Virus record (IMG/VR): IMGVR_UViG_3300021964_000059
Location: 1-63,331 of that record
DNA from: a virus
DNA: 63,331 bases
Strand: one strand, 5' to 3'
Numbering within the stretch: position 1 is the first letter of the stretch; every line of letters begins with the position of its first letter. Of the stretch, positions 24,367-45,649 are shown piece after piece. Made by a program: the position numbers and the translations under genes. The notes beneath the pieces were generated by a model. That model was not told the DNA's origin and made no database searches. It was given only the letters and a program-made list of their open reading frames with translations.

Positions 24367-24393
24367 TCTTTTACCCGTAAAAGACTTTAGTTT

Positions 24394-24401
24394 TATTTAT
24401 A
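24394..24401 (-). promoter_or_regulatory. Late promoter TATAAATA (minus strand)
   Basis: Exact TATAAATA on the minus strand, 28 bases before the ATG at 24366, overlapping the 3' end of the upstream gene. It would allow the fibre/gp8/DUF4815 genes to be expressed separately from gp25-gp6. Confidence 0.75.
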
Positions 24402-27187: not shown

Positions 27188-27627
27188 TATCTCACCCTCG
27201 TTAGTGATACATCTACTTGCACTTGTTCTTCAGTTGAAACCACTTGACAGGTAACTGTTACTCCAATAGAATTGTAATCTGGAGATGGTTCAACATTGAC
27301 TAACTTAACTCTTGCTCTTGGTTCATAGTTATTAATAACATTAGAGACTCTCTCTTGTATATCCAATTCATCAAACTCTTGATCAAGAGAAAATAAAAAA
27401 TCATTCAATCCTCCCCCATAATTAGGATCAAATGGTTTTTCGAATCTGTTAGTAAGAAGAAGATTCTTAATCGCCTGCCTTACAGCAGCACCTTCTGTTT
27501 TCTTATAGATGTCACCTGATGGCCGATTCTGAAAAGTCAGATCGATATCTTTATACGAAACAGACCTACTACTAATGAGAGGAACATTCGATAAGTTTCC
27601 ATCTTCTATTGAAAATCTTCTTGCCAT
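27187..27627 (-). CDS. 25: Baseplate wedge protein gp25
   Basis: A 146-aa protein with the gp25 / type VI secretion TssE signature: SGDIYKKTEGAAVRQAIKNL, NRFEKPFDPNYGG and then the ERVSNVINNYEPRARVKLV region. gp25 (132 aa in T4) anchors the sheath at the wedge. The operon order gp25-gp6 is as in T4-like phages. Start ATG at 27627; a late promoter lies 20 bases upstream. Confidence 0.9.
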   Translation of the reverse strand: MARRFSIEDGNLSNVPLISSRSVSYKDIDLTFQNRPSGDIYKKTEGAAVRQAIKNLLLTNRFEKPFDPNYGGGLNDFLFSLDQEFDELDIQERVSNVINNYEPRARVKLVNVEPSPDYNSIGVTVTCQVVSTEEQVQVDVSLTRVR

Positions 27628-27646
27628 TTTAGAATCTCTTTTCTTT

Positions 27647-27654
27647 TATTTATA
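27647..27654 (-). promoter_or_regulatory. Late promoter TATAAATA (minus strand)
   Basis: Exact TATAAATA on the minus strand, 20 bases upstream of the gp25 ATG at 27627, in the short gap after the FG-GAP protein's stop codon. It is consistent with separate late expression of the gp25-gp6 unit. Confidence 0.75.
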
Positions 27655-27661
27655 TTACAAA

Positions 27662-30283
27662 TTAAGCTGAATCAGGTACAACATAAATAAATGCTGTTCC
27701 TGAATTCACAGGTGCACCGTCCTTCGGGGCCCCGATAATAGCTCTATTGCCACTTATAGCAACTGAATGACCAAATTGATCACCAGCAGCTGGCTGTGGA
27801 TTAGAAATATTTATCGACTGTGACCAGATGCTATCAGATCTTGTAAAGATGTAAGCTGATCCAGCATCAGTCGCACTTGAATCTTCTAGGGGAGCCCCAA
27901 CAATAATCGTATCGCCTTCTAGGTCAATACTGTAGCCTACATATCCATTAGAAGATGCTGGAGACCGAGTTAATTTCGCCTGTTGGGACCACGTAGAATC
28001 TGATCTCGTAAATACATAAATTGCGCCTTCATTACTACCAGATGAATCATCTAAGGTAGCAGTAATAGCTATTGTATTACTGTTACTATCTACAGCAACA
28101 CTATAGCCAAACCTATCATTAACGCCAATATCACCAAGTGGGGCAGTTAGTTTCGCAGTCTGAGACCAACTATCGTTGTTCCTTGTAAATACGTAGGCGG
28201 CCCCAGCACTAAACACACCATTTGTCTGCTTTGAATGAGCACCTACAACAATAGTGTCCCCCGATATGTCAACAGAATTATTCTCTTGGCCAAGCAGATC
28301 TTGCCCCGATGCATCGGAAGCAACTAATTTTTGTTGTTCTGTCCAATTACTTTGTGATCCTGTAAATACATATACGGCTCCTTCGTTACCAGAACCGAGA
28401 TCATGAAATGGTGCACTCGCGACGATTGTATTCCCATCAATTGCAACAGCGCGACCGAATTGATCAGTCTGTGCAACATCTGATGCAGTGAAGGATGTAC
28501 GGTAATTCCAACTATCATACAATCTCGTATATACATTAACTTCTCCTGCTGTTAATATCGAAGGAGCTCCCCCTGTGCCGACCTTTGTTGCTAAGGGTGC
28601 ACTAGCAACAATGGTATCCCCATCTATATCGACTGACCAACCAAAATTGGTATTCGAAGCAGGGTTTTTACCCTTTTGAAGAATTTGTTGTGTTGACCAA
28701 GTACTTGAAGGTCCCACCGAGTCTTTAACAAAGTCGTAAAAATTTGATAATTGAATTGTACCAGATGTGGGTGGGGGGGATCCTTGATCTGCTGCCCCTG
28801 GAAATGTGAGTACATAAACAGCTCCGTAATTAGCTCCGATGGGCCCCGTCGGCTCATCGAGCCGGGATCCGATAATCGCTGTATTACCTGACATACCCAC
28901 ACTATAACCAAAATCTTCGGCCGAGTCCAAAATTGTAGGCCTAAAACTATCCTCTAATTCAACATTAGACCAATCTACTATTTGTGGACTACTAACAACG
29001 CTATCACTATAATATTCCGACAACGATATTGGATTAGTTCCTCCCTGGTAATCTTGCACTTCTGATAAACTGATTGAGGGAAATGACCAACCAAATCCCC
29101 AATTCAATGGCCCAAGATAAATTGTACCTGTTGGTCCTTCTATCGAATCTAGTGACCGTACTAAACTACCATCATAATTATAAAAGTTAACACCTTCATT
29201 GTTATTGACAACAGCAAATTGATTTTTGATTGGGGCAATAGCATTTCCAAATTTAACAACATGTATTCCAACACCATGATTGTATTCTGTAGCTGAATCC
29301 CCCTCTATTATTATTTCATTGGAACCATCAGAGTCGTAAATGTATATTCCACCAAAATCAGAATCATAACCTCTATAAGGTGATCCCACTATTAACTTAC
29401 CTACGTCATCCTGATAGTGTACGCTGATACCAAAGTAATTCCAATTACTATCATCACTTGGATTAATAGTATTCAAATGGGTCCCAGAGTCAGCAGTGTA
29501 GACATAAACACTTCCGGAAGTGAGTTCACTGAAAGACTTGACACCTCCAACATACACCTTATTATTGGAACTTATGGCAATCATCCTCGATAAACCATCT
29601 CCTGTTCCACTCTGTACTACGCCACCAAATCCAATTCCAGATCCAGCTGCAGCTGGTATAGAACATGTTCTAGTGTTAGTGAATCCAGAATCAAACAATC
29701 TAACTCTTCCTTGCCCCTCGACTGTATCAGTTTCCTGTGCAGCAATTATGCCGTGAGATATTTCAACATTTCTTCCGAGGAAGGTTCCAGGAACAAGGCC
29801 TCTATAAGTATAATCGTAGGAGGAATCAGCACTTGGATTAGATACAATACCTTCAATACTATACTGATAAAGTCTTCCATAATCATTAATGCTGCTGCCG
29901 GTTGCACTTACTATTAAGGTATCGCCCTCAATCGAAATAGCGCTCCCAAAGCCATCACCATTAGCATCGGCGACTTCTGTGATATGGGCGATGGGTTGTT
30001 GTCTCCGAGCTATGTACTCGAAAGTGGTTGCATCAAATACATGTATGAGTCCAGAGTTATTATAAACATCATTCCACAGCGGTTCAGATATAACAATATA
30101 TTCGTCATTGAAATCAATAGAACTTCCAAAATTAGCACCTGAACCATATACAGGAGAAATCAGCTGTCTAATTTGCTCACCTGTTTCATAATTTATAACA
30201 CTAACTATTCCTGCCCCATTGTTTCCATCAACAGCATCTTTTGGGTTATTCCCTATGAGGAAACGATATTTGGGTAAAGCCAT
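27662..30283 (-). CDS. FG-GAP repeat beta-propeller protein, 873 aa
   Basis: Carries many repeats of the form FGxSVAIDGNTIVASAPxxD followed by GAVYVFTxxxxxWxxQxKL, the FG-GAP / integrin-alpha-like repeat that builds a seven-bladed beta-propeller. I can make out at least eight units, densest from residue ~430 to the end; the N-terminal half has more diverged units (VFDATTFEYI, GVYIYDSDGSN). There is no signal peptide. The gene lies between the gp5 spike gene and gp25, so the product is probably a baseplate- or tail-tip-associated adhesin. The Ca-binding DxDxDG loops seen in some FG-GAP proteins are mostly absent. The start overlaps the stop upstream (TAATG). Confidence 0.75.
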   Translation of the reverse strand: MALPKYRFLIGNNPKDAVDGNNGAGIVSVINYETGEQIRQLISPVYGSGANFGSSIDFNDEYIVISEPLWNDVYNNSGLIHVFDATTFEYIARRQQPIAHITEVADANGDGFGSAISIEGDTLIVSATGSSINDYGRLYQYSIEGIVSNPSADSSYDYTYRGLVPGTFLGRNVEISHGIIAAQETDTVEGQGRVRLFDSGFTNTRTCSIPAAAGSGIGFGGVVQSGTGDGLSRMIAISSNNKVYVGGVKSFSELTSGSVYVYTADSGTHLNTINPSDDSNWNYFGISVHYQDDVGKLIVGSPYRGYDSDFGGIYIYDSDGSNEIIIEGDSATEYNHGVGIHVVKFGNAIAPIKNQFAVVNNNEGVNFYNYDGSLVRSLDSIEGPTGTIYLGPLNWGFGWSFPSISLSEVQDYQGGTNPISLSEYYSDSVVSSPQIVDWSNVELEDSFRPTILDSAEDFGYSVGMSGNTAIIGSRLDEPTGPIGANYGAVYVLTFPGAADQGSPPPTSGTIQLSNFYDFVKDSVGPSSTWSTQQILQKGKNPASNTNFGWSVDIDGDTIVASAPLATKVGTGGAPSILTAGEVNVYTRLYDSWNYRTSFTASDVAQTDQFGRAVAIDGNTIVASAPFHDLGSGNEGAVYVFTGSQSNWTEQQKLVASDASGQDLLGQENNSVDISGDTIVVGAHSKQTNGVFSAGAAYVFTRNNDSWSQTAKLTAPLGDIGVNDRFGYSVAVDSNSNTIAITATLDDSSGSNEGAIYVFTRSDSTWSQQAKLTRSPASSNGYVGYSIDLEGDTIIVGAPLEDSSATDAGSAYIFTRSDSIWSQSINISNPQPAAGDQFGHSVAISGNRAIIGAPKDGAPVNSGTAFIYVVPDSA

Positions 30284-30897
30284 TAGGGAGCTCCAAATGC
30301 CGTAACGTCGTCTGCAGAAACAATTTCACCCGTAGAACTAATCGAAGCTTTAACAACATCGTTGTAAGAGAATGAAAGCTTGTCACTAACAACGGATATT
30401 TTCCAATTTCCAATAGTTAATGCAGTCGCATCCCCAAAAGCATTACTAATTCTATCATCTGCAATTAGAACAACTTGAGCAGAGTCTGTTCCAACTACAC
30501 CTAGGGATGTAACATAATCGGCATCGATTAGGGATAATACATTAGACGAATCTAAAATATTAGGGGTGTTTAATAAGGAACTGTATCTAAAATCCTGTCT
30601 CGCCGCCACATAATCAGAGTCGATAACAACTTCTCCAACAGATAAATCAACAGCAACATACTTCGTACCATCAAATGACAAAACTTGGCCTGCGGTTGCA
30701 CTATCAACTGAGCTATCGACGTTTGCCAGCTGGCCAATATTTGCTCCAGCGACTCCATCAGAAAAGAATAAATTCCCACTGGCGTCGATAGTAATGACCT
30801 GATTATTTGTACCAGCTTCGGTCGGAAGGGTGTACAACGTATTCCCGTTGTCATCAATATAAATTACTGTACTTCCCGACTGTCTTAAATCTGCCAT
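30283..30897 (-). CDS. Short fibre-like virion protein, 204 aa
   Basis: A 204-aa protein with the fibre modules of this phage (YIDDNGNTLYTLPTEAG, GAVQ-type spacer, LNTPNILDSSNVLSLIDADY) and a C-terminal SVVSDKLSFSYNDVVKASIS beta-domain. The TPNILDSxNV unit is shared with the 720-aa fibre. It is placed between gp5 and the FG-GAP protein, with translational coupling on both sides, so it may link the propeller protein to the tail tip. Confidence 0.6.
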   Translation of the reverse strand: MADLRQSGSTVIYIDDNGNTLYTLPTEAGTNNQVITIDASGNLFFSDGVAGANIGQLANVDSSVDSATAGQVLSFDGTKYVAVDLSVGEVVIDSDYVAARQDFRYSSLLNTPNILDSSNVLSLIDADYVTSLGVVGTDSAQVVLIADDRISNAFGDATALTIGNWKISVVSDKLSFSYNDVVKASISSTGEIVSADDVTAFGAP

Positions 30898-30899
30898 CT

Positions 30900-31691
30900 C
30901 TACACCTTATTCGGTTTTTGTGTCGTGCCAACCGTAGCTGCCAAGCCTGGACCATCTATATGCTGATGAGTATGGTTAACAAGCGACACACCATCCACCA
31001 CGACATCTCCACTGGTACCCGTAACATTCACTGTATCACTTGTTACTGTTGAAGTGGTAGAAGTTACTGTCACATCAGTCGCTTCAACGTTGACATTAGT
31101 TGCCTTTATGTTAGCATTTGTTCCGGCATCAATGTATGTGTTTGTTGTTTTAATGACCAACGATCCGTCTGGATGAAATTCAATAAACGATCCTGATTTA
31201 TGACGTATGTGAATTCTCTCGCCCTCTGGGGTGTCATCAATTTCAATAACATGGCCAGAAGTCGTTTGTGTTACCTTATTGTGAGGATATTCCGCAGCAT
31301 ATGGATCGCTAGGTGCTCCTGTTACGGTAACAGTTTTATCAAGGGATGATTCACCTCTAATTAATGGATTGACGTCTCCTTCCTTTGGCATCGAACCAAC
31401 AACCAATGGGAGCTGAGAGTGGGTCCCATCAAGAAAGATACCAAAGACATTCGAACCAACTTGAACACCAAGATTGTTTCCGAGACCATCTGTTCCACCT
31501 TCTGTAATTGGAGCAACAACCTGAGCCCAAGGTAAATCACTGTCGGGAATGTCAATTGTATTTTCACTATGAACACCAAAGATCCTGACCTTTATTCGCC
31601 CAAGATAAAGAGGGTCGGTGATACTAACAACGCGTCCAATGAACCACCTTGTTTGATCTCCATAAAAGTCAATGTACGGTTTTGGTATCAT
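30900..31691 (-). CDS. 5: Baseplate spike gp5, without lysozyme domain
   Basis: N-terminal OB-fold (residues ~10-110: FIGRVVSITDPLYLGRIKVR, then LPWAQVVAPITEGG) followed by a GDVNPLIRGE linker. The C-terminal Val/Thr-rich repeats (NVNVEATDVTVTSTTSTV) form the triple-stranded beta-helix needle, as in T4 gp5 and VgrG/gpV spikes. The tip has NHTHQHIDG, a histidine cluster like the metal-binding tips of gpV-type spikes. At 263 aa it lacks the lysozyme domain found in T4 gp5 (575 aa); I associate this with marine T4-like phages, and peptidoglycan cutting must then come from elsewhere. ATGA overlap with the hub gene upstream. Confidence 0.85.
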   Translation of the reverse strand: MIPKPYIDFYGDQTRWFIGRVVSITDPLYLGRIKVRIFGVHSENTIDIPDSDLPWAQVVAPITEGGTDGLGNNLGVQVGSNVFGIFLDGTHSQLPLVVGSMPKEGDVNPLIRGESSLDKTVTVTGAPSDPYAAEYPHNKVTQTTSGHVIEIDDTPEGERIHIRHKSGSFIEFHPDGSLVIKTTNTYIDAGTNANIKATNVNVEATDVTVTSTTSTVTSDTVNVTGTSGDVVVDGVSLVNHTHQHIDGPGLAATVGTTQKPNKV

Positions 31692-33037
31692 ACAATATCC
31701 GTATAGTTCGCAAGTTTAGATCCAGTCATCTTTACATAATGTTTAAAAGTATCTGTATCCTTTTTGAATGTATGGTGTGTAGCAAATATCAAATAGTCAC
31801 CAGACTTTTTCTGATCCAGTAATTGATCAGCAAGAGTAGGATCAGGATTTGGGAATGTAAAATGAATTCTCAGATTGTTCCCAACAGTGGAGTGTTCCTC
31901 CCCACCAATAAAATCTAGACCCTTTACAGCAAATGTGATTGGAGCATTGGCGAGAAGCTCTTTCATTGCCTGACTTGTTACATTGTTTTTATAGTCAGAT
32001 AACAACTCACTTTCTTTGTAACTATTAAAAGACGTTTGATCGACATACGCAGAGCTTCCGCCTATCCGTGTAATCTTTCTACTACTAAGTTGATTATATG
32101 GCTTCTCATTTAACTTATATCTTGGACCATACATGATGTTGTTTTGATTTCTTGGTAGTACACTGTTCTTAACAAGAGGGTCTAATAGATCTTTAGTCAC
32201 ATCAAATTGAAATGTGTTTCTTCTATTCTTGACAGTATCAATGTATTCATATTGAGCCCCGATCAATCCCCTTTGAATATATCTGTAGAGATTATTAATT
32301 TCATTTTGATCAAAACCAAGAAGGATTCTTCGCTTGGCTGTTTCATCATCTGAAAAAAATGGTGTACTCGAATATCGATAAGGTACATCTGGGTTGATTA
32401 CTGGTGTATTAATAAGTGTTCCTAAATCAACATACTTCAGAGTGTCTGTTATCAATGTTGAAAATAAATAAAACGGATACCCATTAATGGTTGTTGCTCT
32501 ATCACGAATCCACATCATAGCTTCGATTGGGCTGAGGTTAGGAACAATCAGTTTTACACTTTGAGTATCAACACCAAATTTAGTAATATCTTTGTTCAAG
32601 AAATTTGATGCTATTTTTTCAATGATTGTCCCGCATTTGCCATTGTACGACTTATTTAAATTTTGAAGATTGGATTCAAACCCAATGTCCTCAATCAGAT
32701 TAAAAATATGACCTTCCGATATCTCATTGACCTTTGATGTGGAAAGAATCTCGCTAATGTAAAATGTTTTACTAAAAGGTTTTGCATCTTTACTGCTACA
32801 GGTAATTTTGATGAATATTGTCTCACCGCCGATCACATCAGCATTGGTGAGAAATCCTGAATCATCCACCAGCATAATCCTTCCTGTGAGGTATGGAAAA
32901 TTCAGGTCTTCAAAAATCTCAAGATCCGTTACATTATTTTTCAATTCAATGGAACGATCTAAAAATGGCGATGTGAACAATACCGTATCAAATACAAAAT
33001 CAGAGATCGTCTCTGGTGCACCCGTAAAACTACTCAA
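31688..33037 (-). CDS. Baseplate hub protein, gp27-like, 449 aa
   Basis: Located directly upstream of the gp5 spike and downstream of gp53, as expected for a hub protein. The N-terminus (DFVFDTVLFTSPFLDRSIEL) and the domain around YLTGRIMLVDDSGFLTNADV fit the tail-tube-like domains of gp27/gpD hubs that trimerise and bind gp5. Length (449 aa) is a little over T4 gp27 (391 aa). The C-terminus carries GEEHSTVGNNLRIHFTFPNP and SGDYLIFATHHTFKKDTDTF, the gpD-like tube end. Naming as gp27 relies on structure and synteny rather than clear sequence identity. Confidence 0.7.
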   Translation of the reverse strand: MSSFTGAPETISDFVFDTVLFTSPFLDRSIELKNNVTDLEIFEDLNFPYLTGRIMLVDDSGFLTNADVIGGETIFIKITCSSKDAKPFSKTFYISEILSTSKVNEISEGHIFNLIEDIGFESNLQNLNKSYNGKCGTIIEKIASNFLNKDITKFGVDTQSVKLIVPNLSPIEAMMWIRDRATTINGYPFYLFSTLITDTLKYVDLGTLINTPVINPDVPYRYSSTPFFSDDETAKRRILLGFDQNEINNLYRYIQRGLIGAQYEYIDTVKNRRNTFQFDVTKDLLDPLVKNSVLPRNQNNIMYGPRYKLNEKPYNQLSSRKITRIGGSSAYVDQTSFNSYKESELLSDYKNNVTSQAMKELLANAPITFAVKGLDFIGGEEHSTVGNNLRIHFTFPNPDPTLADQLLDQKKSGDYLIFATHHTFKKDTDTFKHYVKMTGSKLANYTDIV

Positions 33038-33762
33038 CTTCCAACCGCCTCTCTAAAGGATGCAACGACCGTAGGCATAGCTGAAGGTTTGATAATTCGA
33101 ATCTGTTTTAGATCATCATTTTGAGTAAACATCCTATCAAGATAAGTTATCTCAGTAAGCAAAGCCCCGGGTCCAACTTCAGGATCAATATCAATAGTTT
33201 CTCCCGATGCATTTTCATAGTGATGGGCAGATAGGTATTCGAGACCGGTGCTAACTAGTACGATCGATTCCAACTCTTCATCTGAATTTGTGGATGTAAT
33301 CGTTTCACCCGCAGTAAACTGATTCGTCAGCTGACCGACGACAAGCTGACCAAGGTCTAGGTGTCTGTGATTGATAACAGCTGTTGCACCAGACGTAGAC
33401 CCTTGAATTGTCTGACCAACCTTAAACTTATCAGTTAGCCTTGTCCTTGTTGTGAGTGTGGTTAAACTGTAATCCTTTTGAGCTTTTGCAATTAACTCCT
33501 GATTGGTCACAGGCCATCCACGACCTCTAATTTTGTCGTTTATCAAATAAAATGTCCAATGCAATGTTGGGGTATCATATAAGAAGTAAGACAGACGATC
33601 AGGTCTTTGTCCTTCTTCAATATAATAATCCTGGTAAAAGGCAACATTGTTTTTGATTTCATCAAAGATGCTAGAATATACTGAGATGTTTTGAAAGACA
33701 TCAGGTGTAGTTTCATCCCCAAAGAAATATTCTACATATGGAAAATATCTAAAATAACTCAT
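33034..33762 (-). CDS. 53: Baseplate wedge protein gp53
   Basis: N-terminal SYFRYFPYVEYFFGDETTPD, then VAFYQDYYIEEGQRPDRLSY and TPTLHWTFYLIND, match the gp53 family (phage baseplate wedge, LysM-containing in T4), where the W/Y-rich 'Y..D..P...W.....N' motif is conserved. Length 242 aa compares with 196 aa in T4. gp53 is a wedge protein that joins adjacent wedges. It overlaps gp48 upstream and the hub gene downstream. Confidence 0.8.
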   Translation of the reverse strand: MSYFRYFPYVEYFFGDETTPDVFQNISVYSSIFDEIKNNVAFYQDYYIEEGQRPDRLSYFLYDTPTLHWTFYLINDKIRGRGWPVTNQELIAKAQKDYSLTTLTTRTRLTDKFKVGQTIQGSTSGATAVINHRHLDLGQLVVGQLTNQFTAGETITSTNSDEELESIVLVSTGLEYLSAHHYENASGETIDIDPEVGPGALLTEITYLDRMFTQNDDLKQIRIIKPSAMPTVVASFREAVGS

Positions 33763-34763
33763 TAGAATGACCCGGATTGTTGCTGTGCTTGTTCATTGGT
33801 TGCAAACCCCAGTGTCTTCTCAATATCACTTCTGGCCAATGGTCTGTGTTCCATAAAGTTCAAGGTTAGATCAGTTTCAATTGGCTCACCGTCATAATGG
33901 TAGACACCAGCTGTAGGATTGGTTGTTACTGTAATAGAGTTTAGGAAGCAGTCCAATAATTTACTACCGATTGGAACATATCTCAAATTACCGTCCTCAA
34001 ATACTCGGGAGAACAATTTAATCCTAAACATGTCTGGATACTTATACGCAATTGGAATAGCTCCACCAATAGGTAGTTCCTCTGGATATGCATGGAATCT
34101 AAAATAATTAATTATCTGTTTGACAACTACAGCCTCATCCCGAGACCTTGGGATAAATTTAAATTGAAAAGTAAATTGTCTTATACCAACGTTGGAAAAT
34201 GTTGTTCTCAAATTAGGGTGAATACTAGCCTGAGCAATCAGTCCCACAGCATCTCTCACACCCTGAGGAATAGGAGCAAAAGAAGCTGCCCTTACAGCTG
34301 CGGCCTGAGTCAGAGCCTGACCACCAAAAGCTTTTAAAACATCATCCACCCCTTTAATAAATCCTTCTTTCATCGCAGTTGATGCTGCTTGAGCAACTGA
34401 TCCACCTTGCTGCATTGTATTGAGAAAACCAGCTCCCGCAATACCCAATGAGGCTGCGTTATTATAACTAAACACATCTGTAACCGTATGCGCCTGAGGA
34501 ACATACAGATCGACCTTTTTTCCAGTTGCATCAACTTGATAGCCCGAGGCCTTGAGAGACTTAGTTTCTGGAGGATCTACTCGATTTCCAGTGGCATCAA
34601 TATCCTGATCCCCTTCTCTTTTCCATTTCAATAAGGATTTGAAGTCACCCCGAATTGTGGGAGGATTAGTTTTGATGATCTCAAATTGGATCTTTGCATT
34701 GTACCTGTCTCTGTCGTCAATCGGATACTCATATCGACCAGGCTTATAATCTTCAACGGCCAT
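33762..34763 (-). CDS. 48: Baseplate tail-tube cap protein gp48
   Basis: A 333-aa protein with YEYPIDDRDRYNAKIQFEII near the N-terminus, an Ala-rich middle (GIAGAGFLNTMQQGGSVAQA) and the C-terminal region FQFKFIPRSRDEAVVVKQII followed by YFRFHAYPEEL, which I associate with gp48, the protein capping the baseplate and starting the tube. It is the first gene of the gp48-gp53-hub-gp5 operon and follows a late promoter 34 bases upstream. Confidence 0.8.
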   Translation of the reverse strand: MAVEDYKPGRYEYPIDDRDRYNAKIQFEIIKTNPPTIRGDFKSLLKWKREGDQDIDATGNRVDPPETKSLKASGYQVDATGKKVDLYVPQAHTVTDVFSYNNAASLGIAGAGFLNTMQQGGSVAQAASTAMKEGFIKGVDDVLKAFGGQALTQAAAVRAASFAPIPQGVRDAVGLIAQASIHPNLRTTFSNVGIRQFTFQFKFIPRSRDEAVVVKQIINYFRFHAYPEELPIGGAIPIAYKYPDMFRIKLFSRVFEDGNLRYVPIGSKLLDCFLNSITVTTNPTAGVYHYDGEPIETDLTLNFMEHRPLARSDIEKTLGFATNEQAQQQSGSF

Positions 34764-34773
34764 GTAGAAAACC

Positions 34774-34781
34774 TATAGATA
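34774..34781 (+). promoter_or_regulatory. Candidate late promoter TATAGATA (plus strand)
   Basis: TATAGATA differs from the T4 late box by one base and lies 30 bases upstream of the gp4 start at 34812, similar spacing to the minus-strand late promoters here. It sits in the divergent spacer shared with gp48. Confidence 0.4.
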
Positions 34782-34796
34782 GAATTAGTTTAGTTT

Positions 34797-34804
34797 TATT
34801 TATA
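34797..34804 (-). promoter_or_regulatory. Late promoter TATAAATA (minus strand)
   Basis: Exact TATAAATA on the minus strand, 34 bases upstream of the gp48 ATG at 34763. It lies only eight bases before the divergent gp4 start. Confidence 0.75.
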
Positions 34805-34811
34805 ATCAAAT

Positions 34812-35315
34812 ATGGCATATTCAGGTAAATACCAAGTTATCAATCGAGACAAGTATAAAGGCGATCCTGATAAGATCGTCTACAGATCCCTGTGGGAAAA
34901 ATATTGTTTCATCTGGTGTGACACGAATCCAAAGGTCAAGGCTTGGAGCTCTGAAGAAATCATCATCCCATACTATTATGATGTAGACAAAAAATACCAT
35001 CGGTATTTTCCTGATTTAAAAATTGTGACAGAAGAGAAAACACTTCTTATTGAAATCAAGCCAGACAAAGAAACCAAACCTCCAACAGGAGAGAGACGGA
35101 CGAAAAGATACATCAATGAAGGTTTGACATATATTAAGAATATGAACAAGTGGGAAGCTGCCGAAGAATTTTGCAACGATCGCAATTGGGAGTTTCAGAT
35201 CTGGACTGAAGATACGTTGATTGAGATGGGATTGCTTCCTAAGAAAATGCCTGGTAAAATTAAAAAGCCTCTAAAAAGAATGCAGCCATACCGTAAGAAA
35301 AAATCTAAAAAATAA
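34812..35315 (+). CDS. 4: Head completion protein gp4
   Basis: A 167-aa protein. The sequence YRSLWEKYCFIWCDTNPKVK, then a PYYYDVDKKYHRYFPDL strand and LLIEIKPDKE, is the T4 gp4 (head completion, sometimes called gp50) signature with a nuclease-like PD...ExK arrangement (Asp in RYFPDL, then Glu and Lys in LIEIKP). T4 gp4 is 150 aa. It acts at the portal/neck to finish filled heads. The C-terminus is Lys/Arg-rich, fitting DNA contact. It is divergent from gp48. Confidence 0.85.
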   Translation: MAYSGKYQVINRDKYKGDPDKIVYRSLWEKYCFIWCDTNPKVKAWSSEEIIIPYYYDVDKKYHRYFPDLKIVTEEKTLLIEIKPDKETKPPTGERRTKRYINEGLTYIKNMNKWEAAEEFCNDRNWEFQIWTEDTLIEMGLLPKKMPGKIKKPLKRMQPYRKKKSKK

Positions 35316-35316
35316 C

Positions 35317-35324
35317 TATAAATA
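35317..35324 (+). promoter_or_regulatory. Late promoter TATAAATA placed for a leaderless mRNA (plus strand)
   Basis: Exact TATAAATA only five bases before the ATG at 35330. If the box spans -13 to -6 as in T4 late promoters, transcription would begin at the A of that ATG, giving a leaderless message. It may also serve the downstream tail genes. Confidence 0.6.
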
Positions 35325-35329
35325 CTTTC

Positions 35330-35881
35330 ATGAGCAACCTATTTCAAAAGCTAGAAATCGAGGCATTCCGAGCTGGTATTCAGCCTCGTACAAAAGAATC
35401 TATGGATTGGTTTCGAAGGAAAGCAACTCAGCTAGGCCGCGTCGGTAAATCTGTTATGAATGATGAGGCTGTTAAGCTCCAAAGCAGCATGAGGGATCCA
35501 GTTGGAAATATGTACATGTTCTTCTATGATCCCAAACATAAGAAGACATTGCCATACTATGATAAATTTCCCTTGATCCTTATGATTGGTCCAGCTGACG
35601 GAGGATTCTATGGATTGAATCTTCATTATCTTCCTCCCGTGCTCAGGGCAAAGGTTCTAGATGCTGTATTGGCGGAAGATAATAAAGGGGTTGCTGTCAA
35701 AAGAATTCCTAAGAAGTATATTCAACCAATGATTAAGCATTATCTTAACAGTCATGTAAAAAGTAGATTTGCCTTGGTTGATAAACCTGAATGGGAAATT
35801 GCAACATTTTTACCAACTGCACAGTTTGAGAAACTAACAGCGTCTCAGGTGTACACTAGATCGAAGAGAATGATAAAGTAA
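35330..35881 (+). CDS. Putative DNA end protector gp2-like protein, 183 aa
   Basis: The central motif LPYYDKFPLILMIGPADGGF is followed by YGLNLHYLPPVLRAKVLDAV, a conserved block I associate with gp2-type DNA end protectors; T4 gp2 is larger (274 aa). The adjacency to gp4 repeats the T4 neighbourhood. T4 gp2 binds packaged DNA ends and protects them from RecBCD. No Shine-Dalgarno site precedes the ATG. Assignment rests on synteny and partial memory of the motif, so it could be another head or neck protein. Confidence 0.5.
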   Translation: MSNLFQKLEIEAFRAGIQPRTKESMDWFRRKATQLGRVGKSVMNDEAVKLQSSMRDPVGNMYMFFYDPKHKKTLPYYDKFPLILMIGPADGGFYGLNLHYLPPVLRAKVLDAVLAEDNKGVAVKRIPKKYIQPMIKHYLNSHVKSRFALVDKPEWEIATFLPTAQFEKLTASQVYTRSKRMIK

Positions 35882-35882
35882 T

Positions 35883-36530
35883 ATGGCAAACATAAGCGAA
35901 CTCAAATCACTTGCTTCCGTTACATTTGGTTTTGCCAGAAGCAATAACTTTCTCGTTGAACTTCCGTCAATCGGAGGTGCTGGAGGATCAAGTTCTAGTC
36001 AAAAAAGAGAACTCAATCTTCTTTGTAAAAATGCCCAGCTTCCAGGTAAGCAAATTTTAACTGTTGATCGTGTTATTGGTATGCAGGCAGAAAAAATTGC
36101 ATATGGATATGCTGTTGCTCCTGTTAGTTTCTCATTCTATGCCATGAATGATTATTTCATTCGCAAATATTTTGACAGATGGCTTGACCTAATGATGAAT
36201 GAGGATAATGGATTAGTGGGATATAAGAAGCCATCTGGGTATGGTGGATACAGAAGTACAGGATATGCTGCCGCAATAAAAATTCATCAATTAAGAAAAC
36301 CTCAGATTGGTATCAATGCTAATGTTGGACCAATCCAGATTAACGTTGGGGCAGGTGGAGGTTCAGTATACAGTATTGAGCTCGAAGATGCATTTCCGAC
36401 TCAAATCCAATCAGTAGAATTTTCAAATGACTTGGACGGTCTTGTTGAAGTGTTTGTTGAATTTTCATATACGAAGTGGAAGGCAATTAAGCCTTCACAA
36501 AACTTTATCAATGTAAACGTGGGTGTATAA
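35883..36530 (+). CDS. Tail-tube / baseplate tube-initiator-type protein (gp54- or gp19-like), 215 aa
   Basis: N-terminus ATVRFGFARSNNFLVELP-like (SVTFGFARSNNFLVELP) and the segment ELNLLCKNAQLPGKQILTVD followed by YAVAPVSFSFYAMNDYFIRK are characteristic of the gp19/gp54 tube-fold family, which binds the hub and starts the tail tube. Size (215 aa) lies between T4 gp19 (163 aa) and gp54 (320 aa). Because it is followed by gp26, gp51 and the tape measure and the gp19-sheath pair is absent here, gp54 is the more likely equivalent. The central Gly-rich insertion (YKKPSGYGGYRSTGYA) is unusual. Confidence 0.7.
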   Translation: MANISELKSLASVTFGFARSNNFLVELPSIGGAGGSSSSQKRELNLLCKNAQLPGKQILTVDRVIGMQAEKIAYGYAVAPVSFSFYAMNDYFIRKYFDRWLDLMMNEDNGLVGYKKPSGYGGYRSTGYAAAIKIHQLRKPQIGINANVGPIQINVGAGGGSVYSIELEDAFPTQIQSVEFSNDLDGLVEVFVEFSYTKWKAIKPSQNFINVNVGV

Positions 36531-36540
36531 TGGAGAAATT

Positions 36541-37251
36541 ATGGCTATACCATCACTAAATTCGTCACCAAAGTATACGGTACAAATTCCGTCTACTGGT
36601 GAAACAGTAAGGTTTCGACCTTTCCTTGTGAAAGAACAAAAGGTCTTGTTGTTGGCCTATGAGTCACAAGACAAGAAACAAATTATTGGAGCAATCCTTG
36701 ATACGATTAAATCATGTGTTGAGGGTGATATTGATGTTTATCAATTGGCTACCTTTGATGTTGATTATCTGTTTACTCAGATCAGAGCAAAGTCGGTTGG
36801 AGAAAAAGTAGATATTGGATTAAAGTGTAGTCATTGCGAGACTCAAAATAATCAAGAGATCAATCTTGAGGATGTAAAGATTGATGGTAAGAAAGAGTCT
36901 AGTGTGATCAAACTTACTGACGAAATTTCAATTAAAATGAAATATCCTAACTACGAGAAGTTCATGAAGAACAATGATATCTTTGAATCGAAGACATCAA
37001 CTGACATCATTATGAACATCATCATCGCAAGCATTGAATCGATTATGACAGAAGAAGAGAATGTTCTTGCTGCAGATGAAAGTAGTGAAGACCTGATGAA
37101 CTTTGTTGAGTCGATGACTGCAGCTCAGTTCCAATTGGTATCTGACTTTATGGAAGAGATGCCAACAATGAAGTTGGATGTAAACTTTAAGTGTGTAAAC
37201 TGCAGCAAAGACAATACAGTAACATTACAAGGAATTGACGATTTTTTTTAA
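36541..37251 (+). CDS. 26: Baseplate hub assembly protein gp26
   Basis: Start moved to ATG 36541, which follows GGAGAAATT; the in-frame codon 18 bases upstream is not preceded by a ribosome site. The protein (236 aa) has two CxxC pairs (LKCSHCETQ and FKCVNCSKD), a zinc ribbon typical of gp26-like baseplate hub assembly proteins; T4 gp26 is 208 aa. It is followed by gp51 in the -1 frame and then the tape measure, the arrangement of tail assembly chaperones G/GT. The stop codon follows a run of eight T residues. Confidence 0.8.
   Translation: MAIPSLNSSPKYTVQIPSTGETVRFRPFLVKEQKVLLLAYESQDKKQIIGAILDTIKSCVEGDIDVYQLATFDVDYLFTQIRAKSVGEKVDIGLKCSHCETQNNQEINLEDVKIDGKKESSVIKLTDEISIKMKYPNYEKFMKNNDIFESKTSTDIIMNIIIASIESIMTEEENVLAADESSEDLMNFVESMTAAQFQLVSDFMEEMPTMKLDVNFKCVNCSKDNTVTLQGIDDFF
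37242..37251 (+). promoter_or_regulatory. Slippery T8-TAA site: putative -1 frameshift between gp26 and gp51
   Basis: In the gp26 frame the sequence reads GAT TTT TTT TAA. Slippage by -1 on the eight T residues continues into the gp51 frame for 61 codons without a stop. This frame lacks any upstream ATG, GTG or TTG with a ribosome site. Confidence 0.7.
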
Positions 37252-37433
37252 TAAGTCTCTCTCATGAATCGCTGGAAAACTATTTTAAAACAAACTTCCA
37301 GCTGTTGCAGAATTTTCATTATTCTCTACATGAGATCGAAGATATGATCCCTTGGGAGAGAGAAATTTACTTAACAATGTTAATTACAGACATTCAAGAA
37401 AAGAACGAAAGAGCACAACAAGGAATGCAATAA
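37248..37433 (+). CDS. 51: gp51, baseplate hub assembly catalyst, read by -1 frameshift
   Basis: 61 codons in the -1 frame relative to gp26: FKTNFQLLQNFHYSLHEIED, then MIPWEREIYLTMLITDIQEK and ERAQQGMQ. The 'FxNFHYSxxEIxxMIPWEREIY' block is the conserved heart of gp51, which T4 needs for hub assembly (T4 gp51 is 249 aa). No start codon with a Shine-Dalgarno site exists in this frame, so a -1 shift on the preceding T8 run would make a gp26-gp51 fusion, as the lambda G-GT tail chaperone does. It ends TAATG, overlapping the tape measure start. Confidence 0.75.
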   Translation, partial: LISLSHESLENYFKTNFQLLQNFHYSLHEIEDMIPWEREIYLTMLITDIQEKNERAQQGMQ

Positions 37434-39169
37434 TGGCAATAACTCTTGCTGATGTAAACGCACAGCTAGTCAAGCAGAACGAGCTCCAGGAAGAACAGAA
37501 CAATCTTTCTGCCGCACAGGTCGGCGCTATTGCTGGGATGGCCAGTGGACTATCCTCTTTAATTGATACGTTTAAATCTGATCAAATGGATCAGCTTGAG
37601 GCTGATCGGGAAAAACGAGCAGAAGAACGTAGGGTAGTGAAAAGTACTACTCCTAAGGCCGATAACAAGAAAGGACTTTTTGACTTCTTACCCGAGGGTG
37701 GCTTATTTGGTTTAGGTGCAGGGCTTGCCAAATTCTTACCGAAGTTTCTTTTGGGCAGAGCTCTGCCAGCGTTATTGGCAAAAATGTTTGCAGATGAAAT
37801 TGCTGACTATGTTGAGTCAGCCACAGGCAGTAAAGATTTAGGCGATGCAATCTATAGAGGATTGAATCTTGGAGCATTGGGTCTTCTTGTAAGTAGAAAA
37901 TTAGGAATAGTAGGGTTTTTTGCCGGTGCCTTGCTCACAAGTGAAAACAGACAAAAGTTAGAAACTCTGGGTGGGTCTCTCACAGAATTAGGTACTAAGA
38001 TAGGACAGTTTTTTGATCCTGAATTTGGATTACCATCATTTGATCAAGCTTTTAAATTTGTAACTGAAACATTTGGTAGAGCATTAGATTTCTTGATATC
38101 TGGTACCTCATACATAACAAATTTAATGAAGGATGACAAGACAGAAGAAGATCTAAAAAAGATGGATCAAGATCTGGATATCTTGGGTGACAATTGGGAT
38201 GACTTTGGAATTGCTATTGCTGGCCTTGCTGTAATGTTTAAACCGTTTGGTACCGTAAGCTTAATATTAAAAGCAATAGCCGCTCCATTTAAGATGGCAT
38301 ATAAAGGACTTAAAGGATTAGCTGGTCTAGTTCTTGGTGGTACGGCTATCAAAGAATTTGGTAAAACACAAATGGGTGAGATGAGCAAAGGTGAATTGCA
38401 AAAGATGAATACCAAGCAGATTCAAGGAATGTCTGCAGATGATATTAAAAAATTGGAAGGTGAAGGCTATAAGGTCAATCAAAAGACCGGCGCTGTAACA
38501 AATCTCAAAGGACAAGCCGTATCGGCTGATCAGGTTCGTGGCTCCATGTCCCGACTGGGTATGGAAAATCCATTAAACCAAGCCGCAGCTAAAAAATATA
38601 GCAGATTCGGAAAACTCCTCAAGGTTGGGAAGAGTATACCATTCCTTGGCAGTCTGTTATCAGCAGGATATCTTGGTGCAATCTTACTGAGTGATGCATC
38701 CGACGAAGAAAAAATAAAAACCATCGGTGGATTATTTGGTGGTGTTGCTGGTTCATTAGCCCTTGCCGGAATAGGTTCTTTAGCAGGTCCATTCGGTACA
38801 ATTGCTGGAGCGATTGGTGGTGGATTGGCAGGTGATCAATTGGGTCAATGGTTTGCTGGATGGTTAATGAATAATAATGGCAAGCAAGCTGGTACTGAAA
38901 GTGTTGGGGACTATGGTGAGTTTGGTAATTTAGGTAACGACCTTAGTGCACCCACTTCCCAAGCATCCGCTCCATATGCACCAATGTCAGGAACAATACT
39001 AAGAGATGTTGCAGATCAAAGTGTGGCAATGCAGAATACATCCGGTGGAGTTAATATGCTTGACACTAGTGATAAGAGTATTACAGTTAACAACAGTAGT
39101 GGGGTAACCATGGCAGGACCAATGGGTACCCCATTTGATACTTACAACAAGTATGTACTGTACGCTTAG
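37433..39169 (+). CDS. 29: Tail tape measure / hub protein gp29
   Basis: ATG at 37433 overlaps the gp51 stop (TAATG); an upstream in-frame ATG inside gp51 was rejected. The 578-aa length agrees with T4 gp29 (590 aa). The N-terminus is a coiled coil (ELQEEQNNLSAAQVGAIAGM ... EADREKRAEERR). Then come hydrophobic, Gly/Ala-rich helices (KFLPKFLLGRALPALLAKMF; GSLALAGIGSLAGPFGTIAG), which tape-measure proteins use for tube-length setting and membrane penetration. A repeat-like KMNTKQIQGMSADDIKKLEG lies in the middle. The end converges with gp32 with overlapping stop codons. Confidence 0.8.
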   Translation: MAITLADVNAQLVKQNELQEEQNNLSAAQVGAIAGMASGLSSLIDTFKSDQMDQLEADREKRAEERRVVKSTTPKADNKKGLFDFLPEGGLFGLGAGLAKFLPKFLLGRALPALLAKMFADEIADYVESATGSKDLGDAIYRGLNLGALGLLVSRKLGIVGFFAGALLTSENRQKLETLGGSLTELGTKIGQFFDPEFGLPSFDQAFKFVTETFGRALDFLISGTSYITNLMKDDKTEEDLKKMDQDLDILGDNWDDFGIAIAGLAVMFKPFGTVSLILKAIAAPFKMAYKGLKGLAGLVLGGTAIKEFGKTQMGEMSKGELQKMNTKQIQGMSADDIKKLEGEGYKVNQKTGAVTNLKGQAVSADQVRGSMSRLGMENPLNQAAAKKYSRFGKLLKVGKSIPFLGSLLSAGYLGAILLSDASDEEKIKTIGGLFGGVAGSLALAGIGSLAGPFGTIAGAIGGGLAGDQLGQWFAGWLMNNNGKQAGTESVGDYGEFGNLGNDLSAPTSQASAPYAPMSGTILRDVADQSVAMQNTSGGVNMLDTSDKSITVNNSSGVTMAGPMGTPFDTYNKYVLYA

Positions 39170-40056
39170 TCGTCGTTAGCCAATTTGGCGAAGTACGACA
39201 TAGTGTCGTCTTCATCAGTGTCAAACGGAATATCATCCGCTGTGACAGGTTCTAACTTAGCCGGAACAGGTTCATTCATTTGAGCCTCTTGCTTCATAGT
39301 AAGAGTGCCAGCTTCTGCCTCTTCACCAAGAACCTTCATTAACTTAGCCTTCAACTCATCATAAGTCTTGTAGTTAGTAGGATCATTGAACTCCTGTAGA
39401 GGATTCAGTTGACTATAGATTGCTTCCAATTCTTCATCAGATGCAAGCTGTGATGGAGACTCAAACTCAGACTTATCATAGTTGCGATAGCCTTCTACGT
39501 TACGAATCTTCAACTTAAAGTTTGCACCTTGCCAAAAGTCAAATGGATTGATTGGATCTTCATCTTGGAATGAAGGCTGCATAACATCCATAATCATGTC
39601 AAAGATTTTCTTACCAAACTGATAGAGGAATACCTTACCCTCATTCTCAGGATTAGATGGATCACTAATAACCTGGATATTGGTTACGTAATGAAGACGG
39701 CGCTTCTGATCACGAGCCTTCTCTTTGTTAGCCTCAATACCTGAGTTCCACAGACGTGAATTCAACTCACCGACGGGATCTGGTTGACCGACAGAAGTCA
39801 AAGACTTCTCAATGTACCACATTCCTGTAGGACCCTTGAATCCATGATCCCAGTAACGTACCCATGGAAGGTCTTCACCTTCTGGTGCAGGTAGGAAACG
39901 GAAGACTGCATATCCATTACCAGCCTTGTCAACTGTAGGCTTCCAGAATCGGTCATCCCCATAGGATTTCTTTTCTTGGGTTCCACCGACTGCATCGGCT
40001 GCTTGAACAAGCTTAGAGATTTGATCGCGATTACGCTTTAGATTTTCGAATGACAT
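39166..40056 (-). CDS. 32: Single-stranded DNA-binding protein gp32
   Basis: A 296-aa gp32 family member. The N-terminus has the basic LAST-type motif (NLKRNRDQISKL) used for cooperative binding. The core contains YAVFRFLPAPEGEDLPWVRY and WDHGFKGPTGMWYIE, and the C-terminus is acidic (DDIPFDTDEDD) for partner contacts. T4 gp32 has a His-Cys3 zinc site after the WYIE element; this protein contains no cysteine at all, so the zinc ribbon is missing. gp33 lies upstream in the same orientation, near the order in T4. Confidence 0.9.
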   Translation of the reverse strand: MSFENLKRNRDQISKLVQAADAVGGTQEKKSYGDDRFWKPTVDKAGNGYAVFRFLPAPEGEDLPWVRYWDHGFKGPTGMWYIEKSLTSVGQPDPVGELNSRLWNSGIEANKEKARDQKRRLHYVTNIQVISDPSNPENEGKVFLYQFGKKIFDMIMDVMQPSFQDEDPINPFDFWQGANFKLKIRNVEGYRNYDKSEFESPSQLASDEELEAIYSQLNPLQEFNDPTNYKTYDELKAKLMKVLGEEAEAGTLTMKQEAQMNEPVPAKLEPVTADDIPFDTDEDDTMSYFAKLANDD

Positions 40057-41601: not shown

Positions 41602-41749
41602 AATGTAATTTCCTCTCATATTCATGTCTAAGTTCTCTGAGGTTTTTGATCATCTCTTCCACCTCAGATGTTTTATTACTAACCTCTTCTAGGAATCCAA
41701 GTTCCTCGTCAACTTGATCTATTTTTTTAATAATTTCTTCATGCGTCAT
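41558..41749 (-). CDS. Small coiled-coil protein, 63 aa
   Basis: Acidic helical protein with heptads (MTHEEIIKKIDQVDEELGFL, then VEEMIKNLRELRHEYERK). Overlaps neighbours at both ends (start overlaps the stop of the 88-aa gene). Function unknown. Confidence 0.5.
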   Translation of the reverse strand: MTHEEIIKKIDQVDEELGFLEEVSNKTSEVEEMIKNLRELRHEYERKLHYDKITTAPANQEGC

Positions 41750-42012
41750 ATTACCAGACCAGTTACAGCTTGAACATAAGCCTTCTGGAATTCCTCATTT
41801 GTTGGAGTGATAAACACATAGTTGCTGATTGTGATCTTTCGAGTCTGTAATTGACCAGAAACACAAACACCTTTTGCAAAACCTAGCCCTTGCTCGTTCT
41901 GCATCAATACACGTGGATCTTCAAGAGAGATCTCCCCGTCCTTTCCATTAATGTATTTACCTACAATTTCTCCTGCTAGAGAAAAAACTGTTACAATATC
42001 ACCTTTTTGCAT
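41746..42012 (-). CDS. Possible Sm-like small beta-barrel protein, 88 aa
   Basis: MQKGDIVTVFSLAGEIVGKY opens a short beta-rich protein with LEDPRVLMQNEQGLGFAKGV and TRKITISNYVFITP. The strand order and 'G-E-I-V-G-K' turn look like an LSm/Hfq-type barrel or another small RNA- or DNA-binding fold, similar to small proteins I associate with marine T4-like phages. RNA binding would suit the adjacent tRNA and structured-RNA cluster, but this is inferred from shape only. Confidence 0.5.
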   Translation of the reverse strand: MQKGDIVTVFSLAGEIVGKYINGKDGEISLEDPRVLMQNEQGLGFAKGVCVSGQLQTRKITISNYVFITPTNEEFQKAYVQAVTGLVI

Positions 42013-42033: not shown

Positions 42034-42107
42034 TGGCCCCGGTGGAGGGAATCGAACCCCCATTAAGGGTTTTGGAGACCCCTGTGTTGCCATTACACCA
42101 CACCGGA
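42034..42107 (-). tRNA. tRNA-Trp (CCA)
   Basis: Minus strand. Acceptor TCCGGTG pairs with CACCGGG, discriminator G, and the CCA end is encoded. Anticodon loop CTCCAAA between GGGGT and ACCCT gives anticodon CCA (Trp). The T-loop region reads GGGTTCGATTCCC. Confidence 0.9.
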
Positions 42108-42329
42108 AATGGGACTGTCTTTATGGCGCAGTCATTCCAAAAATAAAAGCGGAACGGGTGGATTAGGGTAACCACCAAGGGGGTACGATCAGATGTACCT
42201 TTCTACATAGACCCCCAACAACTCGCAACCCCGCTAAGGGTGTGGACGCTATCCCTTTGAGTCTACCTTACCCGCCATCTGCGACAGGCATTCGGTCACG
42301 TTCCTATCGGTGTTGCAATCACCGAACTC
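42108..42329 (-). ncRNA. Putative structured RNA A between tRNA-Pro and tRNA-Trp (222 nt)
   Basis: No start-to-stop reading frame of note covers this spacer, yet it contains strong complementary segments on the minus strand: CGGTG-ATTGCAA-CACCG, GGTGG-TTACCCTAAT-CCACC, a GGGGGT ... ACCCCC stem with inner TGTA-GAAAGG-TACA, AAGGG ... CCCTT, and GACTG-CGCCATAAAGA-CAGTC near the 3' end. T4 has stable RNAs of unknown role (RNA C and RNA D) inside its tRNA cluster, a precedent. Function is unknown; folding was judged by eye. Confidence 0.5.
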
Positions 42330-42406
42330 TGGTCGGAGTAGATGGATTCGAACCACCGACATCTGCCTCCCAAAGGCAGCGGTCTACCAGACTGACCTAT
42401 ACTCCG
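42330..42406 (-). tRNA. tRNA-Pro (UGG)
   Basis: Minus strand. Acceptor CGGAGTA pairs with TACTCCG; discriminator A and CCA are encoded. Anticodon loop TTTGGGA in stem CTGCC/GGCAG gives TGG (UGG, Pro). T-arm GGTTCGAATCC is intact. Confidence 0.9.
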
Positions 42407-42606
42407 TAAAAAGTGAACAGTTTGTATGCACATGTTCAGGTGCAGCCTGTTGTCAGGTCTTCAAGCCTGATGCCTAAGCAGCGCAGGAACATAGAATTAG
42501 TGAAGGTTCCGATATCACCCATCGTCACCTACAACCGTTGAGAGAGGTACGAGGTCCCACCTTACGATCGGTGGGTTCGTGGTCCAAAGACCTCTCTGAT
42601 TTGCTC
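42407..42606 (-). ncRNA. Putative structured RNA B between tRNA-Cys and tRNA-Pro (200 nt)
   Basis: Non-coding spacer with dense pairing potential on the minus strand: AGAGAGGT ... ACCTCTCT closing CCCACC-GATCGTAA-GGTGGG, a GGAAC ... GTTCC stem, TCAGG-CTTGAAGA-CCTGA, and a final TGAACA ... TGTTCA stem followed by CTTTTTA, which resembles a terminator. It is flanked immediately by tRNA-Cys and tRNA-Pro and would be released by tRNA processing. No homologous named RNA is recognised. Confidence 0.5.
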
Positions 42607-42681
42607 TGGAGTGGACGACAGGAATCGAACCTGCCTAAAACTGATTTGCAGTCAGTCGCCTAACCTATCAGCCACGTCCAC
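42607..42681 (-). tRNA. tRNA-Cys (GCA)
   Basis: Minus strand. Acceptor GTGGACG pairs with CGTCCAC; discriminator T and CCA are encoded. Anticodon loop CTGCAAA in stem ACTGA/TCAGT gives GCA (Cys). T-arm GGTTCGATTCC. Confidence 0.9.
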
Positions 42682-42691
42682 GAAAATGTTT

Positions 42692-42767
42692 TGGCTGGCA
42701 TGACAGGGTTCGAACCTGTGACCGGACGGTTAACAGCCGTCTACTCTACCAACTGAGCTACATGCCA
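42692..42767 (-). tRNA. tRNA-Asn (GUU)
   Basis: Minus strand. Acceptor TGGCATG pairs with CATGCCA; discriminator G and CCA are encoded. Anticodon loop CTGTTAA in stem GACGG/CCGTC gives GTT (Asn). T-arm GGTTCGAACC. Confidence 0.9.
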
Positions 42768-42786: not shown

Positions 42787-42832
42787 CAAATGAGGATGAG
42801 GACTTATTTTGGCTGCCTCGTTTCCTCATTTG
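42787..42832 (-). promoter_or_regulatory. 10-bp inverted repeat in the leader of the tRNA transcript
   Basis: CAAATGAGGA (42787-42796) is perfectly repeated in inverse at 42823-42832, just downstream of the promoter at 42841-42869. The same CAAATGAGGA is used as a Shine-Dalgarno leader at other early promoters of this phage; here it forms a hairpin with itself upstream of a tRNA and is not followed by a gene. Confidence 0.6.
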
Positions 42833-42840
42833 ATGTAAAC

Positions 42841-42869
42841 ATTATAATGTAGTTCAATACAAAAGTAAA
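42841..42869 (-). promoter_or_regulatory. Early sigma70-like promoter for the tRNA cluster
   Basis: Minus strand: TTTACT, exact 17-bp spacer, TATAAT (the wider -35 context is GTTTACTTT). The start would lie near 42834, upstream of the inverted repeat and tRNA-Asn. T4 early promoters have the similar GTTTAC...TATAAT layout. Confidence 0.75.
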
Positions 42870-42929: not shown

Positions 42930-43006
42930 TGGTGCCCTCACCCCGATTCGAACGGGGAACCCCAAACTTAGAAGGTTTGTGCTCTGTCCAATTGAGCTAT
43001 GAGGAC
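42930..43006 (-). tRNA. tRNA-Arg (UCU)
   Basis: Minus strand. Acceptor GTCCTCA pairs with TGAGGGC (one G-U), discriminator A and CCA are encoded. Anticodon loop CTTCTAA in stem CAAAC/GTTTG gives TCT (Arg). It lies upstream of the promoter, beside the membrane-protein gene, and may be transcribed separately from the other four. Confidence 0.9.
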
Positions 43007-44087: not shown

Positions 44088-44113
44088 AATTGCTCTCCTC
44101 ATTTGATGTAACC

Positions 44114-44142
44114 ATTATCTTACCACTCAAAGAAAATGTCTA
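44114..44142 (-). promoter_or_regulatory. Early promoter (TAGACA-17-GATAAT)
   Basis: Minus strand TAGACA, exactly 17 bp, GATAAT, then a GGTTACATCAAATGAGGAG leader, common to the other early promoters in the window. The Shine-Dalgarno is inside the leader. Confidence 0.7.
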
Positions 44143-45594: not shown

Positions 45595-45620
45595 ATATCT
45601 CTCCTTCATTTGATGTAGCC

Positions 45621-45649
45621 ATTATCCTACATTATAAAAAAAAGAAAAC
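45621..45649 (-). promoter_or_regulatory. Early promoter (GTTTTC-17-GATAAT) with palindrome at -35
   Basis: Minus strand GATAAT (45621-45626) with GTTTTC exactly 17 bp upstream. The palindrome AAAACATGTTTT (45645-45656) overlaps the -35, so a repressor site is possible. The shared TACATCAAATGAAGGAG leader follows. Confidence 0.6.

Follow-up and report, generated by a model that had tools for sequence, protein, structure and literature searches.

A conserved RNA family and a probable divergent manA RNA in the tRNA cluster of a T4-like phage

The tRNA cluster and its two long spacers

The DNA analysed here, hereafter the window, is a 63,331-nucleotide stretch of a marine T4-like phage (IMG/VR record IMGVR_UViG_3300021964_000059, positions 1 to 63,331), with genes for ribonucleotide reductase and for a single-strand binding protein of the gp32 type. 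Its minus strand encodes five tRNAs in the order Arg-Asn-Cys-Pro-Trp, located by ARAGORN at 42930..43006 (tRNA-Arg(tct)), 42692..42767 (tRNA-Asn(gtt)), 42607..42681 (tRNA-Cys(gca)), 42330..42406 (tRNA-Pro(tgg)) and 42034..42107 (tRNA-Trp(cca)), and an 88-aa gene follows tRNA-Trp on the same strand (41746..42012). A promoter-like site on the minus strand (TTTACT-17-TATAAT; 42841..42869; 10 of 12 matches) lies upstream of the succession tRNA-Asn, tRNA-Cys, a new RNA, tRNA-Pro, a probable manA RNA and tRNA-Trp, and the number of such sites in the window is not above that in shuffled sequence. Directly after this site, preceding tRNA-Asn, stands one of three minus-strand copies of the motif TAATGNTTACATCAAATGAGGA (42823-42844, 44096-44117 and 45603-45624; two exact, one with three mismatches; 0.01 expected), a candidate leader or promoter-proximal motif. 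Between 44100 and 57000, the minus strand holds a long run of open reading frames that resemble, by eye, glycosyltransferases, methyltransferases and sugar-nucleotide enzymes.

Two gaps in the cluster are long, namely 222 nt between tRNA-Pro and tRNA-Trp (42108-42329) and 200 nt between tRNA-Cys and tRNA-Pro (42407-42606), both read here on the minus strand. ARAGORN confirmed their coordinates as given in a first-pass annotation, and the proposal made there that both hold structured RNA is borne out by an Rfam match to manA in the 222-nt spacer and by covariation across dozens of phage sequences in the 200-nt spacer. The grounds offered for it fared less well. The coincidence of both spacers' ends with tRNA ends is real, but it follows from the definition of a spacer. 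That they are too long to be ordinary does not hold: in the loci of the 84 elements described below, 314 of the 662 adjacent tRNA pairs within 400 nt of each other are less than 20 nt apart, and long gaps are also common in these related arrays, so spacer length alone is unremarkable. Thermodynamic excess over shuffled sequence was found for the 200-nt spacer (z -2.27; 5 of 200 shuffles equally stable) but not for the 222-nt spacer (z -0.92; 33 of 200). Fold energy is a weak witness for either spacer, and it is the comparison of sequences that establishes both predicted RNAs.

A probable manA RNA between tRNA-Pro and tRNA-Trp

The two spacers had been taken for a pair of one class, a grouping that has to be given up: the 222-nt spacer probably contains a divergent member of the already described manA family, whereas the RNA in the 200-nt spacer belongs to a separate one. 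The literature describes manA as a candidate regulator acting in cis, with occurrences in marine sequences and in T4-like cyanophages (PMC2864571; also PMC9964418). In a permissive Rfam scan, positions 42147..42325 (minus strand) aligned with all 192 positions of the manA model (RF01745; 45.6 bits, E 2.7e-10). The copy differs from the typical family in lying between two tRNAs and in scoring under the Rfam gathering score of 55.2, for which reason it was missed by a default scan and is called here a divergent, probable member; for comparison, the manA RNA of Prochlorococcus phage P-SSM2, 16 nt upstream of purL, reaches 181.6 bits.

A related contig, L002, contains a homologous manA RNA, likewise under the gathering score (48.3 bits, E 3.2e-11), and encodes an 88-aa protein 99% identical to that of the window. 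At least three manA stems show compensatory pairs between the two copies, judged by inspection, changing from window to L002 as CCUGUC/GGCGGG to CCUCUC/GGGGGG, GGUGG/CCACC to GGGGG/CCCCC and GGGGGU/ACCCCC to GGAGGU/ACCUCC. The L002 copy adjoins a tRNA-Pro that corresponds to the window's but is truncated to its 5' half, and it ends 26 nt before the 88-aa gene, directly 5' of it in what may be its 5' UTR. No tRNA-Trp lies in this interval in L002; in the window, tRNA-Trp stands between. For the window copy, itself a candidate cis-regulator, the 88-aa gene downstream is the probable target, and the copy is unusual in that a tRNA separates the RNA from this gene.

The remaining 3' tail of the spacer (42108..42146, minus strand; fold z -1.43) forms a small GACUG/CAGUC hairpin before tRNA-Trp. 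A group I intron was considered here, as a AAGACAGUCC stretch near 42118 resembled the group I S element; it is read as a plain hairpin because its strands are only 11 nt apart. In L002, tRNA-Cys is followed by a different spacer (5720-5780), with the hairpins CCAG...CUGG and CCUUUUG...CAAAAGG, and then by the truncated tRNA-Pro fused to manA, the new RNA being absent.

A conserved RNA family in the tRNA clusters of many phages

The RNA of the 200-nt spacer, termed class A, spans ~104 nt directly 3' of tRNA-Cys (42501..42604, minus strand) and consists of a GCAAAU box, a hairpin P1, a CAACGGUUGU linker and a hairpin P2 with tandem G.A pairs. The box (42599..42604) is followed by P1 (42541..42597), whose arms 42590-42597 and 42541-42548 (AGAGAGGU/ACCUCUCU) enclose an inner hairpin. 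The conserved core (42501..42540) reads CAACGGUUGU-AGGU-GA-CGAU-gggugau-AUCG-GA-ACCU-UCA, and its columns are invariant or covarying in alignment A1. The A1 family consensus is GCAAAY, a P1 variable in sequence and length, CAAYGGUUGU and P2, the last of the form NNGU-GA-CGAU-loop-AUCG-GA-ACN'N' followed by UCA. The covariance model R1 matches the window copy at 42499-42567 with 59.4 bits (E 5.8e-12), skipping its long P1 insert.

Covariation, which the first-pass annotation had named as a check, is pronounced. The covariation score of A1 is 0.385, compared with 0.123 +/- 0.010 for shuffled alignments (0 of 500 as high) and at most 0.081 in slid-partner controls. In A1, changes on both sides occur at each of the five modelled P1 pairs and at the two variable pairs of P2a (NN/N'N'), while the tandem G.A of P2 is invariant. 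Across 63 distinct natural sequences the score is 0.406, in an alignment made to the model and thus fitted to the structure. Unsupervised mutual information, gap-column artefacts aside, likewise ranks the P1 and P2a pairs at the top, followed by columns 24-51 (C/C or U/A), which possibly form a tertiary contact, a signal that shared ancestry could also explain. The CAA of the box may pair with the UUG of GGUUGU to form a pseudoknot, P0; these pairs are kept in 43 of 43 sequences, with changes only to G-U, and because the columns hardly vary the evidence for pairing is only suggestive.

BLAST of the spacer sequence against 50,697 phage records recovered a 42-nt core with 95% identity to Pseudomonas phage HU1, where the element (AP019415.2, 22722-22783, minus strand) lies 22 nt after tRNA-Asn, and 86% identity to Xanthomonas phage XAJ2, where it stands directly before an intrinsic terminator and then endolysin. 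The core pattern matched 55 IMG/VR stretches and further patterns added more, giving 84 distinct instances, nearly all in IMG/VR phage contigs. The genomes that carry the element range from 42.5 kb (HU1) up to a 364-kb contig, and include many unrelated phages. Among 84,980 bacterial and archaeal species of GTDB, the pattern occurred in only four contigs and the model in one. The model match lies on a short, tRNA-rich MAG contig and is therefore likely to be phage contamination. No R1 match at E<=0.5 was found in 219 kb of relative, cyanophage and E. coli DNA. Second weak R1 matches in XAJ2 (3195) and in the L002 contig (98259) lack the core, and a match in Mycobacterium phage prophi86-1, inside a head-to-tail stopper gene, was treated as chance. 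The element is accessory, given that L002 lacks it despite a nearly identical neighbouring gene.

Its placement is closely tied to tRNAs. A same-strand tRNA lies within 400 nt of 75 of the 84 distinct instances, compared with 21% of random positions in the same loci, and an opposite-strand tRNA in none. A CCA occurs 0-6 nt 5' of the box in 57 of 84 (commonest distance 2), and a following tRNA usually starts 10-16 nt after GGAAC. The 5' neighbour varies (Thr, Asp, Glu, Asn, Trp, Tyr, Cys and others), so the new RNA is not part of one particular tRNA, a pattern that fits an independent gene better. The class A elements in L073 and L077 have no adjacent tRNAs; upstream of both stands the same long inverted repeat (ATTGGTTTGGTGTTT / ACACCAAARCCAAT), so that the element may there constitute the 3' domain within a larger RNA.

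These observations bear on the reading of the spacer as ordinary, a decayed tRNA or chance structure. Fold energy alone is modestly unusual, and 42432-42492 could be a tRNA remnant, but the covariation, the specificity of the model and the position across dozens of phages refute this reading for 42501-42604 and leave it a very small probability overall. It may still apply to the rest of the spacer (42407..42500, minus strand), whose fold is not beyond chance (z -0.6) and within which 42432-42492 is drawable as a degenerate tRNA-like fold. A degenerate tRNA in 42407-42498 was nevertheless rejected as a candidate: it can be drawn, but with that z of -0.6, and relaxed ARAGORN calls were only low-scoring.

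The existence of the 42501-42604 RNA family is secure, and it is apparently a family of its own that was previously undescribed. Searches with cmscan against Rfam 15 gave no match to the new RNA in the window at E<=10, nor, at E<=2, to the class A elements of nine further loci, and no description of the family was found in the open-access full-text literature. The likeness that the first-pass annotation had drawn to the stable RNAs of T4 is apt in kind for this spacer: T4 RNAC and RNAD (species 1 and 2), also structured and not tRNAs, come from a phage tRNA cluster and have no known function (PMC3014915, PMC9697503). No homology to them was found, however: the T4 RNAs are 139 and 119 nt long and lack the conserved core; R1 found no match in the T4 genome, and with filters off its best hit in the T4 tRNA region (7.6 bits, E 0.38) fell outside rnaC and rnaD. 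GOLLD and ROOL are also phage or prophage RNAs of unknown function that often occur near tRNA islands (PMC12286853), but GOLLD members are often >800 nt, and both families are in Rfam without being matched by the new element. The new RNA is akin to the structured RNAs of phage tRNA islands, with a new and unrelated structure.

Candidate roles of the new RNA and of its P2 hairpin

The most probable reading, given about even odds (roughly 0.5), is that the 200-nt spacer contains a small-RNA gene whose product would be excised together with the tRNAs and act in trans, most likely via protein binding, the function being inferred. The RNA would be co-transcribed with the tRNAs and cut out of the transcript by the nucleases that mature them, and the released RNA of ~70-105 nt would persist and act in trans, most likely with the P2 hairpin, including its UUGU bulge and tandem G.A, presented to a host or phage protein. 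This reading is favoured because the element is single-copy, sits mid-array, takes its neighbouring tRNA freely and also occurs in 3' UTRs. Whole-record searches (n = 20) gave one match in 18 records, two in one and none in one, where one of the 18 single matches is weak (E 0.0015) and the counts derive partly from incomplete contigs. The conserved loops showed no complementarity to rRNA above that of shuffled segments.

Copy number and placement also weigh on two further proposals. A self-cleaving ribozyme that helps cut the tRNA precursor would suit a small, highly conserved core with a possible pseudoknot between tRNAs, yet no Rfam ribozyme matched, and there is one element per array despite many junctions, most tRNA-tRNA gaps having none; this is improbable. 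Still less probable is a hairpin that works as single-stranded DNA in mobility or recombination, in the manner of REP or attC elements, for although a compensatory hairpin recurs in many phages and several contexts, it keeps one orientation relative to the tRNAs and one copy per genome, and a conserved G-U pair is frequent (57 of 63).

The principal competitor to the trans-acting RNA, less probable but substantial, is a cis element whose nascent hairpins act on their own transcript, either as an antiterminator that binds RNA polymerase or as a signal for tRNA-precursor processing or stability. The single strand relation to neighbouring tRNAs and the leader-like sites keep such a role open. The tRNA arrays are untranslated, and a reduced form of the P2 hairpin precedes unrelated genes, lying just upstream of ribosome-binding sites in some loci (e.g. 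L101, L107, L173). The most concrete version is antitermination resembling that of the put RNA of phage HK022, which is likewise ~70 nt long and folds into two stem-loops, stem II containing non-canonical pairs (PMC9378689); the position of the XAJ2 element just ahead of an intrinsic terminator would suit it. The resemblance to put is structural only, as the two have no conserved nucleotides in common and put lies downstream of early promoters; in HK022 positions 24000-40000, neither the core pattern nor an R1 match was found. Against a cis role, the element is usually single, often mid-array and without an adjoining promoter, and in other loci (L106, L109, L114) the reduced hairpin occupies a 3' UTR, followed by a terminator and a convergent gene, which leaves it no gene to control. 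Terminators within 130 nt follow only 5 of 99 elements (control 1.8%), and P2 as the switch stem of an intrinsic terminator was accordingly rejected.

A relaxed P2-only pattern extended the search beyond class A. Among the matches listed that are not class A, all 19 distinct sites close to tRNAs and 34 of 49 elsewhere have complementary letters at both variable pairs, with a chance expectation of 14%, and the non-tRNA sites are intergenic in 31 of 42 of those listed. Some P2-only sites must be chance matches because the pattern is short. It is tentatively proposed that the previously undescribed module GGUUGU-NNGU-GAC...GGAAC-N'N'-UC is widespread in unrelated phages, where 5' domains of several kinds would precede it in tRNA arrays, in 5' leaders and in 3' UTRs, and that it might govern the transcription of the phage or the fate of its RNA by binding one common host factor such as RNA polymerase or a ribonuclease.

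Several hairpin-only loci had no Rfam match at E<=2 except L159, where the hairpin-only match falls inside a tmRNA: this phage-contig tmRNA (3465-3813; 100.7 bits) contains a perfect P2-like match at 3719-3746 that may be chance. Concatenated hairpin-only queries against named phages matched only the wcaG RNA of cyanophage S-RIM4, through the 5' part of L152 and not its hairpin; in L152 (7107-7210), a tRNA spacer has a wcaG-like 5' hairpin and then a P2 hairpin. In L121 (1056-1085) and L161 (minus strand, 2453-2482), a P2-like hairpin directly precedes an apparent tRNA half carrying the T-arm (GGTTCGAATCC), which suggests a tRNA that is split or interrupted. L107 has a Pistol ribozyme (2652-2712) 1.5 kb upstream of its P2-like hairpin.

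Non-tRNA RNAs of phage tRNA clusters have been without an assigned function since the discovery of T4 RNAC and RNAD, and to these the new family adds an RNA that sequence comparison supports strongly and whose conserved core is defined. Because bacterial hosts are on record for two named phages that carry it, HU1 (Pseudomonas lactis) and XAJ2 (Xanthomonas arboricola), the family is open to experiments by deletion, expression and pull-down. The probable manA copy illustrates a way in which candidate cis-regulators can come to lie inside tRNA arrays, and long spacers in phage tRNA arrays deserve reading as possible RNA genes.
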